Below are positions 1,234 to 5,726 of a stretch of 64,000 nt of DNA, piece after piece; the stretch's first letter is position 1, and the number at the start of each line of letters is the position of its first letter. Both the position numbers and the translations under genes were made by a program. A model generated the notes under the pieces. The model searched no databases and was not told where the DNA came from. It saw only the letters and a program-made list of their open reading frames with translations. The stretch comes from Alphaproteobacteria bacterium. GTDB taxonomy: Bacteria; Pseudomonadota; Alphaproteobacteria; Rhizobiales; GCA-2746425. The DNA is taken from the NCBI GenBank assembly GCA_024743215.1, contig JANSWZ010000003.1, forward strand, positions 310,001-374,000, in the 5' to 3' direction.

Positions 1234-1463
1234 GTGGTTCACGATGGGTGAGCAGATGCGCTTTCCCTTTTATCCCCTGAGATTGCGTAGTGAGTTTGCC
1301 CAGTGAGTTTGAAAGTGGAAATCAACCATAATGTCATGCCTGTTGTCTTCAAGAAGGTTGATTTCTTCCATGCGAAGGTTTTTATGGAAACTTGGAGAGC
1401 GCTTTAATACAGGGCCTGGGCTCAGGACAGCGCATCTTCTGCCAACTTGATGAGGATATTCAT

Positions 1464-2474
1464 GTGAGCCAGGCACTCGTTTTGGACGAAACAGAAACCA
1501 ATACTGCAGCTGAGGCGGAAGATTTGCGTCCCGGGCTTGTTTCTGTTGCGGACAATCCGACGCCGCAAGGTGGCATCCTGCAATGGCTGGATAGTGGAGG
1601 CGTCAAATTGCGCTGTGTGCGCTGGCCTGCCTCGGTTCGGGATGTTCGCGGGACGGTCTGTCTTATTCAGGGGCGCAGCGAGTATATTGAAAAATACTAT
1701 GAGGTGATCTCGGACCTTCGCGGTCGGGGATTTGCTGTGCTGACGTTCGATTTTCGCGGGCAGGGTGGTTCAGACCGCCTGTTGCAGCAGCAGGAACGCG
1801 GTCATGTGGACCATTTTTCAGACTATGTGGCTGATCTTGAAACGGTGATGTCAGAGGTTTTACTGCCTGAGTGTCCGGCCCCATTTTATGCTCTTGCCCA
1901 TTCCATGGGCGGGGCCGTTATGCTGCACAGTCTGGAAAACGGACGGCTGGTTTTCGACCGAATTGTATTGTCAGCGCCCATGATAGGGCTGGCGCGCAAG
2001 CGGCCACGGCAAAAGACGCTGGCAAAAATTGTCAGGATCCTGAACGGCTTTGGGCTGGGTGAGAGGCGGATGCCGTTCTCCCGACAAACGGCCTTTGAAA
2101 CCATGAATATGGACAAGAATATTCTGACAAGTGATCCGGACCGGCTTCAAAATGCAACCCGGACACTGCGCAAAGCGCCATACCTCAAAATCAGCGAGCC
2201 GACCATCGGATGGGTCCATTCCGCGTGTCAGGCCATGGACGGTTTTCAAGACCCCGAATTCAGGTTTAACAATCGCACACCGGTGCTGATGGTTGCATCG
2301 GGAAATGACGACGTTGTGTCATTGGCAGCGATCGAAAAACTGGCGCATTCCATGCGTTCGATCTGGCATATTGTTGTTCCCGGCGCACGTCATGAAATCA
2401 TGCAGGAACGAGATTCGCTTCGGGATCAGTTCTGGGCAGCGTTCGATGCTTTTATTCCAGGAACTGAGATCTAG
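1464..2474 (+). CDS. Alpha/beta hydrolase, lysophospholipase (PldB-like)
   Basis: This serine hydrolase of the monoglyceride lipase / lysophospholipase L2 group has 336 residues from the GTG at 1464. The nucleophile elbow AHSMGG sits near residue 147, the acid is probably the Asp pair in SGNDDVV, and the His is in GARHEIM. The FDFRGQGGSDR loop is typical of the PldB family. It probably hydrolyses lysophospholipids or acylglycerols in the cytoplasm or at the membrane; no signal peptide is visible. The open frame extends to a TTG at 1392, but the GTG at 1464 has GAGGAT 8 nt upstream and is preferred. The gene converges with the hisN-like gene, with only 16 nt between the stops. Confidence 0.8.
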   Translation: MSQALVLDETETNTAAEAEDLRPGLVSVADNPTPQGGILQWLDSGGVKLRCVRWPASVRDVRGTVCLIQGRSEYIEKYYEVISDLRGRGFAVLTFDFRGQGGSDRLLQQQERGHVDHFSDYVADLETVMSEVLLPECPAPFYALAHSMGGAVMLHSLENGRLVFDRIVLSAPMIGLARKRPRQKTLAKIVRILNGFGLGERRMPFSRQTAFETMNMDKNILTSDPDRLQNATRTLRKAPYLKISEPTIGWVHSACQAMDGFQDPEFRFNNRTPVLMVASGNDDVVSLAAIEKLAHSMRSIWHIVVPGARHEIMQERDSLRDQFWAAFDAFIPGTEI

Positions 2475-2490
2475 ACGCTACGTCATTTCT

Positions 2491-3330
2491 TTATTTGTCG
2501 AGGATCGCAAGTGCTTGGGCGTGCAGCGTTTCATTGGCCGCGGCCAGGACTTGCAAACGCTCATGTTTTTCCAGTCCCCGCACAGGATTACCCTGCCATG
2601 TGGTGACTTTGCCGCCGGCAGCTTCGATGATCGGAATGAGAGCTGCAATGTCGTAGATTTGAAGCCCGGCCTCTACATCAAGGTCTGCAAACCCAGATGC
2701 GACCATCGCATAACCATAACAGTCGGCACCGTAGCGATACAATTGGCAGCTTTGTTCCAACTGGTCATAGCGAGCGCGCTCCCCATTGGCCAGAATAGCT
2801 GGGTCTGTGGTGAACAAGGTCGCTTGGCCCAGCGTTTCATGTTGCCTTGTGGCCAAACGTGTCAGCGGAGCTTTTGATTTCGTGTTTTCAAGCCAGGCAT
2901 GACTGCCAGCGCCGACGAAAATTTCACCCAGAACGGGTTGTATCATGGCCCCAAGGATTGGCGTGCCTTTGTGGCACAATGCTATGAGCGTGCCCCAAAG
3001 GGGCAGGCCTGAAACGAATAGTCTGGTGCCGTCAATCGGGTCTAAAACCCAGACAAATTCTGCCTGAAGGTTTTCTGCGCCATATTCCTCTCCCAAAATT
3101 CCATGATCTGGAAATCGCTGATTGATCAGTTTTCTGAGCGCCGCTTCGGTATTTTTGTCTGCAATGGTTACCGGATCAAAGTCATTTGATGCACCTTCAG
3201 ACCCATTCTCCAACTTGTTTTCGATATGTAGCGGCTGACGAAAATGGGGCAGTGTTTCCGCTGCGGCTACGTCGGCCATTTCCCGGATAATTTCCGGAAC
3301 GCCATTCTGCGTGGAAAACTCATTGTGCAT
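2491..3330 (-). CDS. hisN: Inositol-monophosphatase family protein, HisN-type histidinol-phosphatase
   Basis: The product has 279 residues from the ATG at 3330, which has AAGGAG 12 nt upstream; an in-frame TTG at 3372 lacks such a site. The family's metal and phosphate motifs are present in order: GEEYG (first metal Glu), WVLDPIDGT (metal Asp pair and phosphate loop) and, at the C-terminal side, LDVEAGLQIYDIAALIPIIEAAGG. The usual WD before the last helix is replaced by YD, as in HisN-type members. Known members dephosphorylate L-histidinol phosphate in histidine synthesis, using Mg2+. Inositol-1-phosphate or related sugar phosphates are alternative substrates that sequence cannot exclude. 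No other his gene lies nearby. Confidence 0.75.
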   Translation of the reverse strand: MHNEFSTQNGVPEIIREMADVAAAETLPHFRQPLHIENKLENGSEGASNDFDPVTIADKNTEAALRKLINQRFPDHGILGEEYGAENLQAEFVWVLDPIDGTRLFVSGLPLWGTLIALCHKGTPILGAMIQPVLGEIFVGAGSHAWLENTKSKAPLTRLATRQHETLGQATLFTTDPAILANGERARYDQLEQSCQLYRYGADCYGYAMVASGFADLDVEAGLQIYDIAALIPIIEAAGGKVTTWQGNPVRGLEKHERLQVLAAANETLHAQALAILDK

Positions 3331-3517
3331 GGCTGGTATGCGCTCCTTGCATATCTGGGGTGAGGCTATCAATGTGATTTCTGCTCGTTACATTTAAACT
3401 ACTGATAAAAAACATTAATTTTTACGGATTGGAATTTCGATTCTTCACATGGATGTCCTTGATTATGACTTTTGCTGACAAAATGCGAGTTCGTTTTGCA
3501 AAAACCTGCGGTCCAAC

Positions 3518-3546
3518 CTTGACTCTTGTGCGTTGCAACCACATCT
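3518..3546 (+). promoter_or_regulatory. Promoter of the first AbcR-like small RNA
   Basis: CTTGAC (3518-3523) is followed by 17 nt and ACATCT (3541-3546). The CTTGAC hexamer is the usual -35 of alphaproteobacterial housekeeping sigma promoters. The second copy, 374 bp downstream, keeps the same hexamer and spacing, so the element has been conserved since the duplication. Confidence 0.6.
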
Positions 3547-3552
3547 TCATTG

Positions 3553-3649
3553 CATAGCAACATTCACTCCTCCCGAGTGTTGCTTCCGCCCCTCGTGGGC
3601 GTTTCCTCCCTAGACTCAAGGCCGCAGCTTCTTGCTGCGGCTTTTTTTT
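3553..3649 (+). ncRNA. AbcR-like (alpha-r15) trans-acting small RNA, copy 1
   Basis: This is a stand-alone RNA of about 97 nt with three hairpins in order. Hairpin 1 is CACTC/GAGTG (3565-3579) with loop CTCCC, flanked by GCAA/TTGC. Hairpin 2 is CGCCC/GGGCG (3587-3601). A single-stranded stretch with CCTCCC (3605-3610) follows, then the terminator hairpin. Two C/U-rich anti-Shine-Dalgarno modules, one in the loop of hairpin 1 and one between hairpin 2 and the terminator, are the hallmark of the Hfq-dependent AbcR RNAs of rhizobia and Brucella. These silence ABC transporter and other uptake mRNAs. A second, diverged copy lies 374 bp downstream, as AbcR1/AbcR2 commonly occur. The 5' end is inferred from the promoter. 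Target range here is unknown. Confidence 0.78.
3621..3649 (+). terminator. Terminator of small RNA copy 1
   Basis: An 8-bp stem GCCGCAGC/GCTGCGGC with loop TTCTT is followed by eight T residues. It is identical in copy 2. Confidence 0.92.
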
Positions 3650-3680
3650 GTGTTTTGAGCCGGTAAAAGATTGACATTTT

Positions 3681-3806
3681 TTCTGCCGCTGATGGTCGGT
3701 AAAACGAGCAAGACTGTAGGTAAAGCATGGATTTCCGCCAACCCTGCGCAAGCAGGCCAGAGGCTTGTTGCATGTCTCCAAATCCTGCGTGGCGCCGCGT
3801 TGTCGT
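3681..3806 (-). pseudogene. Fossil 3' fragment of the amidohydrolase gene, left between the two small RNAs
   Basis: Read on the minus strand, this stretch translates to HAGFGDMQQASGLLAQ, then diverges and ends PSAAE. The intact neighbour at 4051-5040 ends HTGFNDLQQALGLFAQ ... KPLAAE and stop. The two align in one frame and at a spacing of 374-376 bp, the same spacing as the small RNAs. The copy has no start, an in-frame TGA near 3812, and no stop where the intact gene ends, so it is not coding. It is best read as the trace of a tandem duplication that carried promoter, small RNA and the last ~40 codons of the neighbour. Confidence 0.8.
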
Positions 3807-3891
3807 TCCTCACACATTCTGCATGAAGCTTTGGGCCGATGGCTTTGGGGGGCAAAATGCGAACTCTTTGCGCAAAAATTTCTATTTCAGG

Positions 3892-3920
3892 CTTGACTTT
3901 TGTGCGCTGCAACCGCATCT
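3892..3920 (+). promoter_or_regulatory. Promoter of the second AbcR-like small RNA
   Basis: CTTGAC (3892-3897), a 17-nt spacer and GCATCT (3915-3920). It matches the promoter of copy 1 except for a few bases, including the first base of the -10. Confidence 0.6.
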
Positions 3921-3926
3921 TTGCTG

Positions 3927-4023
3927 CATAGCAACATTCACTCCTCCCGAGTGTTGCTTCCGCCCCTCGTGGGCGTTTCCTCCCTAGACTTAAGGCCGCA
4001 GCTTCTTGCTGCGGCTTTTTTTT
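3927..4023 (+). ncRNA. AbcR-like (alpha-r15) trans-acting small RNA, copy 2
   Basis: This RNA has the same three-hairpin plan as copy 1: CACTC/GAGTG with loop CTCCC (3939-3953), CGCCC/GGGCG (3961-3975), the free CCTCCC module (3979-3984), and the terminator. From the first hairpin to the terminator the two copies differ at only one position (ACTCAAGG against ACTTAAGG), while the 5' end and promoter differ more. In known AbcR pairs the two RNAs overlap in targets but differ in expression. Here the identical target-binding modules and diverged 5' regions suggest the same arrangement. The RNA is convergent with the amidohydrolase gene, whose stop lies 27 nt downstream. Confidence 0.78.
3995..4023 (+). 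terminator. Terminator of small RNA copy 2
   Basis: The same GCCGCAGC/GCTGCGGC hairpin as in copy 1, followed by nine T residues. Confidence 0.92.
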
Positions 4024-4050
4024 GTGTTTTTGGGAAGTTAAAGCTGGCGA

Positions 4051-5040
4051 CTACTCTGCCGCCAGTGGTTTGGCAAGCCCAGCATCGCTGGACGTAAAGC
4101 AGGGATGCGCCATCAAGGCCTGTGCGAACAGGCCAAGGGCTTGTTGCAGGTCATTAAATCCTGTGTGACGCTGCAATGTCACTTCGTCCATATATAGTTG
4201 GCGATTGATTTCTATCTGGAACGCATTCAGACCGCGCTGAGGTCGGCCATAATGCTCGGTGATAAATCCGCCTGCATAAGGGCGGTTCTTGGCAACCGTG
4301 AAACCAGCTTGCCTGAGCAGTGCCACGGCAAAGTCAATCAAGTCCCCTCGACAGCTTGTCCCATATCGGTCCCCTATAATCATGTCAGGGCGCTTTTCTG
4401 CCTCCCCGTCGGCAGCTTTGCTGGTTTGTTGCGATGGCATGGAGTGGCAGTCGATCAGAAGGGCATGGCCAAACCTGCTATGCGCGCGTGCCAATAGGTG
4501 CCGCAAACTGTCATGATAGGGGCGGTATATCAGTTCGATGCGGGCTAGAGCATCGTTTGGATCCAGTTTGCTGATATAGATGTCGCGGTTCTCAGCAACG
4601 ATCCGTGCAATGGTTCCAAGGCCGCCGCTGACGCGTATGGACCCCGTATTTGCATAAGGGGGCAGAGGCGCAAAGAACATGCGTGCATCAAGCTCATATG
4701 GTTCACGATTGACATCCAGATAGGCACGGGGAAAGTTTGCTTTTTGCAAGACAGCACCCAGCTCAGGCGCCGCCTTAAAAAGCTCGTGGACGTCCATGTC
4801 CTCGGAGGCACGGATCGTCAGGGGATCGAGCCTCGACTGGTTGAGGAAGCGCTCTGGATATACCGCGCCACTGTGGGGCGAGTTAAAGATTATTGGTTTG
4901 GTCTGGTTGTGTTCGCCCAGAACTTCGAACGAGGGCACGGTCGTAAAATCATTGAACGAATCATGCGCCGACACAACAGTCACATTTTCTGTTTCGCCTC
5001 GTTCTGCTTGTGGGTCTGCTTGATCTGTCATTGCCACCAT
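4051..5040 (-). CDS. N-formylglutamate amidohydrolase family protein (first of two)
   Basis: This 329-residue protein belongs to the HutG-like N-formylglutamate amidohydrolase family (PF05013). Family motifs are FNSPHSGAVYP (metal His), RAYLDVNREPYELD, LLIDCHSMPS, DRYGTSC and ITEHYGRPQRGLNAFQIEIN. The classical reaction is hydrolysis of N-formyl-L-glutamate to formate and glutamate, the last step of one histidine degradation route. No hut genes are nearby. The gene instead sits next to cpdR, an order common in this lineage, so the cellular substrate is open. The first ATG (5040) lacks a strong ribosome site; the ATG at 5031 is possible. Its 3' end was copied into the spacer between the small RNAs. 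Confidence 0.82.
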   Translation of the reverse strand: MVAMTDQADPQAERGETENVTVVSAHDSFNDFTTVPSFEVLGEHNQTKPIIFNSPHSGAVYPERFLNQSRLDPLTIRASEDMDVHELFKAAPELGAVLQKANFPRAYLDVNREPYELDARMFFAPLPPYANTGSIRVSGGLGTIARIVAENRDIYISKLDPNDALARIELIYRPYHDSLRHLLARAHSRFGHALLIDCHSMPSQQTSKAADGEAEKRPDMIIGDRYGTSCRGDLIDFAVALLRQAGFTVAKNRPYAGGFITEHYGRPQRGLNAFQIEINRQLYMDEVTLQRHTGFNDLQQALGLFAQALMAHPCFTSSDAGLAKPLAAE

Positions 5041-5366
5041 CGTGTCAGGAATTTTTCATTTCGTCCATTCATGACGTCCCGAGTTCTGCCAGTCCTTGAT
5101 CCCTGAAGTCGTTCCCTGCAAATAAAGGCCGCCTATGCAATCCAGAAAACTTAAATTATGCGACTTTTCTGTTCATGCAATGGACAAGTTTTGATTCAAA
5201 CATTTACCATATCATAGGTTTTTTCGCCCAGTAAGCTTGTGCTACATCTGAGATATGGCATCAGAGCGCTGTCTGGTGATCGGATCGCTTGCAAAGGCGG
5301 AGCACTGGTCACGATATTGGTGATGAGCAAAGACCGGTGCAGTCCGGCAAGAAGGAAGACAAGTAT
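5041..5366. other. Spacer between the amidohydrolase gene and cpdR
   Basis: This 326-nt region separates two divergent genes and must hold both promoters. I find an AGGA-type ribosome site before cpdR (near 5352-5356) but no convincing CtrA box (TTAA-N7-TTAA), CTTGAC promoter or hairpin. Confidence 0.4.
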
Positions 5367-5726
5367 ATGGCCCATATTTTGTTGGCTGAAGATGATGATG
5401 ATATGCGCCGCTTCTTGACGAAGGCACTGCAGACGGCCGGGCATACCGTTGTCGATTTCGACAATGGAAGAAGCGCATACGAGCGCATGCGCGAGGAGCC
5501 GTTTACGGTGCTTCTGACCGATATTGTCATGCCTGAAATGGATGGTATTGAACTGGCCAGAAAGGCGACTGAACTCGACCCGGACCTGAAAGTCATGTTT
5601 ATCACCGGATTTGCAGCTGTCGCGCTCAATCCTGATTCCAATGCGCCTAAAAATGCCAAGGTCTTGTCCAAACCGTTTCATCTGCGAGACCTGGTAGGGG
5701 AAGTGGACCGCCTTTTGGCGGCATAA
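5367..5726 (+). CDS. cpdR: Single-domain response regulator CpdR
   Basis: This 119-residue stand-alone receiver has near-canonical CpdR sequence: acidic cluster EDDDD at 8-12, phosphoacceptor Asp52 (LLTDIVMPEMDG), Thr80 and Lys102 (SKPF). In Caulobacter and Sinorhizobium, unphosphorylated CpdR acts as an adaptor that primes the ClpXP protease for substrates such as PdeA and promotes removal of the cell-cycle regulator CtrA; the CckA-ChpT phosphorelay switches it off. FITGFAAVALNPDS and the LLAA tail are characteristic; the alanine tail resembles ClpX-recognised ends (inference). The ATG at 5367 has AAGGA upstream; the open frame extends further upstream without a good site. tRNA-Val follows. 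Confidence 0.93.
   Translation: MAHILLAEDDDDMRRFLTKALQTAGHTVVDFDNGRSAYERMREEPFTVLLTDIVMPEMDGIELARKATELDPDLKVMFITGFAAVALNPDSNAPKNAKVLSKPFHLRDLVGEVDRLLAA

Follow-up and report, generated by a model that had tools for sequence, protein, structure and literature searches.

The window, the whole 64,000-nucleotide stretch of DNA that we analysed, carries two small RNA genes of the αR8/MmgR family, head-to-tail and 374 bp apart, between a hisN-type phosphatase gene and the gene for an N-formylglutamate amidohydrolase (FGase). The features of the locus, in window coordinates, are as follows.

2491..3372, minus strand: hisN-type histidinol-phosphatase of the inositol-monophosphatase family (PF00459; TIGR02067, 294 bits over cut-off), the conserved left neighbour, syntenic in relatives.
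3465..3838, plus strand: copy 1 of the duplicated unit, comprising promoter, RNA, gene-end relic and worn junction (direct repeats at 374/376 bp; alignment).
3519..3547, plus strand: putative core promoter of RNA 1, with a -35 element TTGACT (3519-3524), a 17-nt spacer and a -10-like CATCTT (3542-3547), a pattern present in both copies and kept in congeners.
3553..3649, plus strand: αR8/MmgR small RNA copy 1, with a predicted 5' end, three hairpins, the 10-mer UUUCCUCCCU at 3602-3611 and a terminator (RF00519; fold).
3681..3806, minus strand: FGase relic, the last ~42 codons, stop lost, with indels, now non-coding (alignments; codon-position changes).
3807..3838, no strand: worn junction between the units, with no recognisable homology on either side.
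3839..4182, plus strand: recognisable part of copy 2 of the unit, with the end of the intact FGase gene on its right (repeats; alignment).
3893..3921, plus strand: putative core promoter of RNA 2, with a -35 element TTGACT (3893-3898) and a -10-like CATCTT (3916-3921), from sequence pattern.
3927..4023, plus strand: αR8/MmgR small RNA copy 2, with the 10-mer at 3976-3985 (RF00519; fold).
4051..5040, minus strand: FGase (PF05013, 4.4e-73), the intact source of the relic.
5367..5726, plus strand: CpdR cell-cycle response regulator (NF046022, 197.7 bits over cut-off), the conserved right neighbour.

The succession lysophospholipase-like hydrolase, hisN, αR8, FGase and cpdR (1392-5726) is kept in many families of the order, so that the gene of a cell-cycle regulator is one constant neighbour of the αR8 RNA. 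A preceding sequence-only reading of this DNA had recognised an amidohydrolase neighbour whose gene end was duplicated; both points stand, and the neighbour can now be named more precisely as FGase, the marker of the ancestral αR8 locus (PMC12559287).

A repeat finder returned two direct repeats, one of 205 nt at an offset of 374 bp (3465-3669 versus 3839-4043, 84%), in agreement with the constant 374-bp spacing of the RNA pair reported previously, and one of 62 nt at an offset of 376 bp (3743-3804 versus 4119-4180, 77%). The spacer that follows RNA 1 contains a second, decayed version of the final ~42 FGase codons, in which the stop codon is gone and indels are present. Its local alignment to the FGase gene end, first proposed at offsets of 374-376 bp, scores 69, with 1000 dinucleotide shuffles yielding 16.8 ± 2.3 and a maximum of 28; at the protein level, the translated spacer scores 76 versus 25 ± 4 in alignment with the FGase C-terminus, and the pairing of HAGFGDMQQASGLLAQ...SAAE with HTGFNDLQQALGLFAQ...LAAE is seen exactly as it had been quoted. 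On the gene side, homology is recognisable up to near 3806/4182, and the junction lies within 3807-3838, its exact breakpoint worn beyond reading; the boundaries assigned to the unit from the sequence were correct to within ~30 bp. The upstream flank of copy 1 runs on into the corresponding flank of the congeners and the right flank of copy 2 runs on into their FGase gene, as a tandem duplication demands.

An αR8 match is present in 89 of 101 genomes of the order. Comparison of copy state in relatives, suggested in the sequence-only reading as a check, gave the same result in all four congeners examined: each carries one αR8 copy in the syntenic position, where hisN and FGase lie ~320 bp apart. 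The corresponding gap in the window measures 678 bp, which is 304 + 374. Flanking sequence repeated in register together with single-copy relatives is the pattern of a tandem duplication, and the proposal that promoter, RNA and gene end were copied as one unit of ~374 bp is upheld. Neither of the two outcomes named against that proposal, a chance-level alignment of spacer and gene end or unlinked ancestral positions of the two RNAs in relatives, was seen, the alignment lying far beyond the shuffles and the single copies of relatives being syntenic. Other families also have tandem αR8 copies at this locus, and none of the 11 spacings searched there contains an FGase relic (z -1.0 to 1.8). The bodies of those tandem copies are 65-85% identical versus 98% here; they are older pairs, which may be separate events, and the window pair is by far the freshest among those examined. 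Because the four congeners are single-copy and the 11 other spacings are free of a relic, the pair appears to have arisen by duplication at the level of the lineage, with a fossil that can still be read. In genome G048 (loci L042 and L043) αR8 occurs in two tandem arrays with at least five copies in total, three of them at the FGase locus and two elsewhere.

To place the duplication in time, we compared the relic with the gene ends of the window and its congeners. The window's own gene end resembles the relic more closely than that of congener G001 does (26 versus 8 informative sites, p = 0.003), so the duplication is younger than the split from G001. It appears to date to about the split from G002, the nearest congener, with promoters that give conflicting signals on the exact age: the second copy was either gained in the window's lineage, or gained slightly earlier with one copy then lost in G002 through recombination between the bodies. 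We consider it possible, although rather unlikely, that the duplication predates the G002 split and that the single-copy species returned to one copy through a deletion between the near-identical bodies, an event that would restore exactly promoter 1 followed by gene end 2. An older origin of this kind fits the length of the relic branch, which roughly equals the entire neutral distance to G002, and the core promoter of copy 1, which is nearer to that of G002 (44/48) than to that of copy 2 (40/48). It is also consistent with the core promoter of copy 2 (3888-3935), which matches that of the more distant G001 at 44/48 sites and has five nucleotide states in common with G001 that occur in neither copy 1 nor G002; these are not predicted by a simple recent duplication, and may reflect parallel change, a short interspecies tract or an older history. 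The cost of the older date is one or more reversions, and against it also stand the affinity of the relic for its own gene end over that of G001 and the nominal grouping of copies 1 and 2 by the distal promoter, whereas the equivalent comparison with G002 (9 versus 4 informative sites) is not significant. In likelihood tree tests the gene end does not separate a duplication before from one after the G002 split, and the core promoter signals conflict.

The two copies have diverged very unevenly. From the first hairpin to the terminator the RNA bodies are identical at 86 of 87 sites, as the sequence-only reading had it (one difference), the sole exception being a C in copy 1 versus a T in copy 2 just 3' of the 10-mer, a change private to copy 1. 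The promoter and spacer were also correctly described as diverged, with 40/48 identical sites in the core promoter, 30/47 in the distal promoter and 88/126 between the relic and intact gene end. Along the relic branch we counted 32 private changes in 126 sites, distributed 15/10/7 over codon positions 1/2/3, with two further sites in the three-way comparison at which all three sequences differ; the intact gene end differs between the window and G002 at 15 sites, and 10 of these are at position 3. Because the changes in the relic are even over codon positions, its stop is lost and it contains indels, it is decaying neutrally and provides a neutral clock. At the rate of the spacer, a body divergence of 1/87 has a probability of ~1e-12.

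A comparable constancy of the body is found between species. Copy 2 is identical to the RNA of G002 at 87/87 sites, of G001 at 85/87 and of G003 at 84/87. Fourfold sites differ by 0.26-0.38 in G002 and by about 0.6 in the other compared congeners, so that congeners at a near-saturated synonymous distance differ by only 2-3 sites in the body. Since the body is equally frozen between species, purifying selection on both bodies would suffice to account for their near-identity, and the pattern indicates that both copies have probably been under selection since the duplication. Gene conversion between the copies, which had been offered as the alternative to selection on both, is improbable: although the tracts are close, lie in the same orientation and have near-identical bodies next to strongly diverged flanks, the orthologues of G001, G002 and G003 are 95-100% identical to the window copies without any conversion, and copy 1 has retained its private substitution. 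Of the two explanations offered originally, selection is thus the one that stands, and conversion is unneeded given that copy 2 equals G002 over 87 nt.

The RNAs had been described as AbcR-like, and this assignment has to be replaced. Both are members of the αR8/MmgR family (RF00519; αR8/MmgR/SisA), with matches of 65.6 bits for copy 1 (3581-3657) and 68.8 bits for copy 2 (3955-4031) that span model positions 1-77 of 77 and compare with a curated cut-off of 41 bits; the genome has no further αR8 match, and both of these lie at the FGase locus. Each RNA has the exact 10-mer UUUCCUCCCU past a small hairpin, followed by a Rho-independent terminator, and FGase (PF05013) adjoins copy 2 in an order that is the same in relatives. 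The predicted fold (-41 kcal/mol, z -6.4, for RNA 1 and -40.9 kcal/mol for RNA 2) consists of three hairpins and leaves the 10-mer unpaired. In most species a single αR8 copy lies beside FGase and carries the 10-mer 5'-UUUCCUCCCU-3' (PMC12559287). The Rfam check for AbcR that had been suggested gave no match to the ar15 model (RF02345) at E ≤ 0.001 in this genome, and the same model scored 112-127 bits in a positive control, genome G027 of the same order. That the pair could be AbcR1/AbcR2 (αr15), which it resembles in its tandem siblings, three hairpins, two CU-rich anti-Shine-Dalgarno motifs and predicted ABC-transporter targets (PMC7143759), is scarcely credible given a silent ar15 model, an RF00519 score well over cut-off, neighbours that are hisN, FGase and cpdR in place of lsrB, and a locus and 10-mer that belong to αR8 (PMC12559287). 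Sub-threshold Rfam matches such as rli32, JA04 and anti-hemB are far below their cut-offs and were set aside as chance.

The pair agrees with the family as known elsewhere (RF00519 suhB/MmgR; SisA-D of Caulobacter crescentus) in covariance-model score, exact 10-mer, terminator and FGase-side location. Multiple and adjacent αR8 copies are already on record for the family, in the part of the literature represented by PMC12559287 citing Lagares 2016, so tandem αR8 copies as such are known; what differs here is the still-readable duplication fossil, which among the spacings examined is found only in the window. Other tandem sibling sRNAs, such as OmrA/OmrB, are likewise adjacent, nearly identical and able to act on overlapping targets (PMC12559287), but differ in sequence, host and targets.

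We searched the genome for sites that could pair with the 10-mer. The seed complement GGGAGGAAA occurs 26 times at 2-9 nt before an ATG, versus 0 for the reversed pattern. Counting only genes of 100 codons or more, it precedes 22 different ones. Periplasmic solute-binding proteins, belonging to ABC, TRAP and TTT transporters, are the products of 13 of them, with TRAP DctP-type, TctC-type and SBP_bac_1 proteins included, as compared with 3 of the 16 genes that follow two other strong sites (p = 0.014). Genes in which AAGGAGG is followed by AA, with proteins named from their sequences rather than by a Pfam scan, encode solute-binding proteins in 5 of 7 cases versus 2 of 14 otherwise (p = 0.017). 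Both p-values are exploratory because the classes of ribosome-binding site were selected as the analysis proceeded. The additional AA lengthens pairing to the RNA and not to the 16S tail, the sequence of which we assume here. Orthologous complement sites recur in congeners. The exact complement of the 10-mer forms the ribosome-binding site of several solute-binding protein genes, for example at loci L103, L108 and L109, around locus position 1500. Caulobacter SisA represses TonB-dependent receptors and other transporters, acting on many mRNAs by pairing of the 10-mer (PMC12559287). These genes are candidate targets of repression, although solute-binding protein genes may owe such ribosome-binding sites to other reasons.

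A second anti-Shine-Dalgarno motif, CUCCUCCC, lies in the loop of the first hairpin of each RNA (approximately 3567-3574 and 3941-3948). The window and three congeners share CUCCUCCC, and G004 has UUCCUCCC with a compensatory stem pair; outside the genus a first-loop anti-Shine-Dalgarno motif was found at 1 of 28 sampled αR8 loci. The genus thus possesses an αR8 with two seeds, similar to AbcR in its layout, probably through convergence. We suggest only tentatively, as a possibility that we would not favour as it stands, that the αR8 of the genus is a two-seed, AbcR-like regulator, that many solute-binding protein ribosome-binding sites have co-evolved as its exact complements (GGGAGGAAA), and that the tandem copy is an independently promoted extra dose.

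Overall, a head-to-tail duplication of ~374 bp comprising αR8 and the end of FGase, followed by purifying selection on both bodies, with copies that act as repressors, is very probably the correct account of the locus. The ancestral state would have been a single αR8/MmgR gene between hisN and FGase, and the duplicated unit would have begun ~90 bp before the RNA and ended ~130 bp into the FGase gene, counted from its 3' end. The original upstream flank would have stayed with copy 1, which acquired a dead FGase end; copy 2 would have retained the intact FGase and acquired a new junction on its upstream side. Afterwards the dead gene end decayed neutrally and the promoters diverged, with the RNA bodies held by purifying selection. 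Both copies are presumably expressed, and each RNA is most likely a trans-acting repressor, probably Hfq-dependent, whose single-stranded UUUCCUCCCU would pair with transport mRNAs at their ribosome-binding sites, above all with those for periplasmic solute-binding proteins. With two promoters and one RNA product, any difference in regulation between the copies would be expected to shift dosage or timing rather than the choice of targets.

This is a known RNA at a known locus, with a duplication that is real, well preserved and cleanly interpretable. Sibling small RNAs are common, and the origin of each pair is rarely legible in the sequence; here the direct origin that had been claimed for the pair holds, and the dead end of a neighbouring gene within the unit makes the mechanism unusually plain, fixing it together with the boundaries and direction of the event. 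The relic also serves as an internal neutral clock with which the frozen RNA bodies can be compared. Finally, for the αR8 RNAs of Hyphomicrobiales, few of whose direct targets are known, the seed analysis provides a concrete class of candidate targets.
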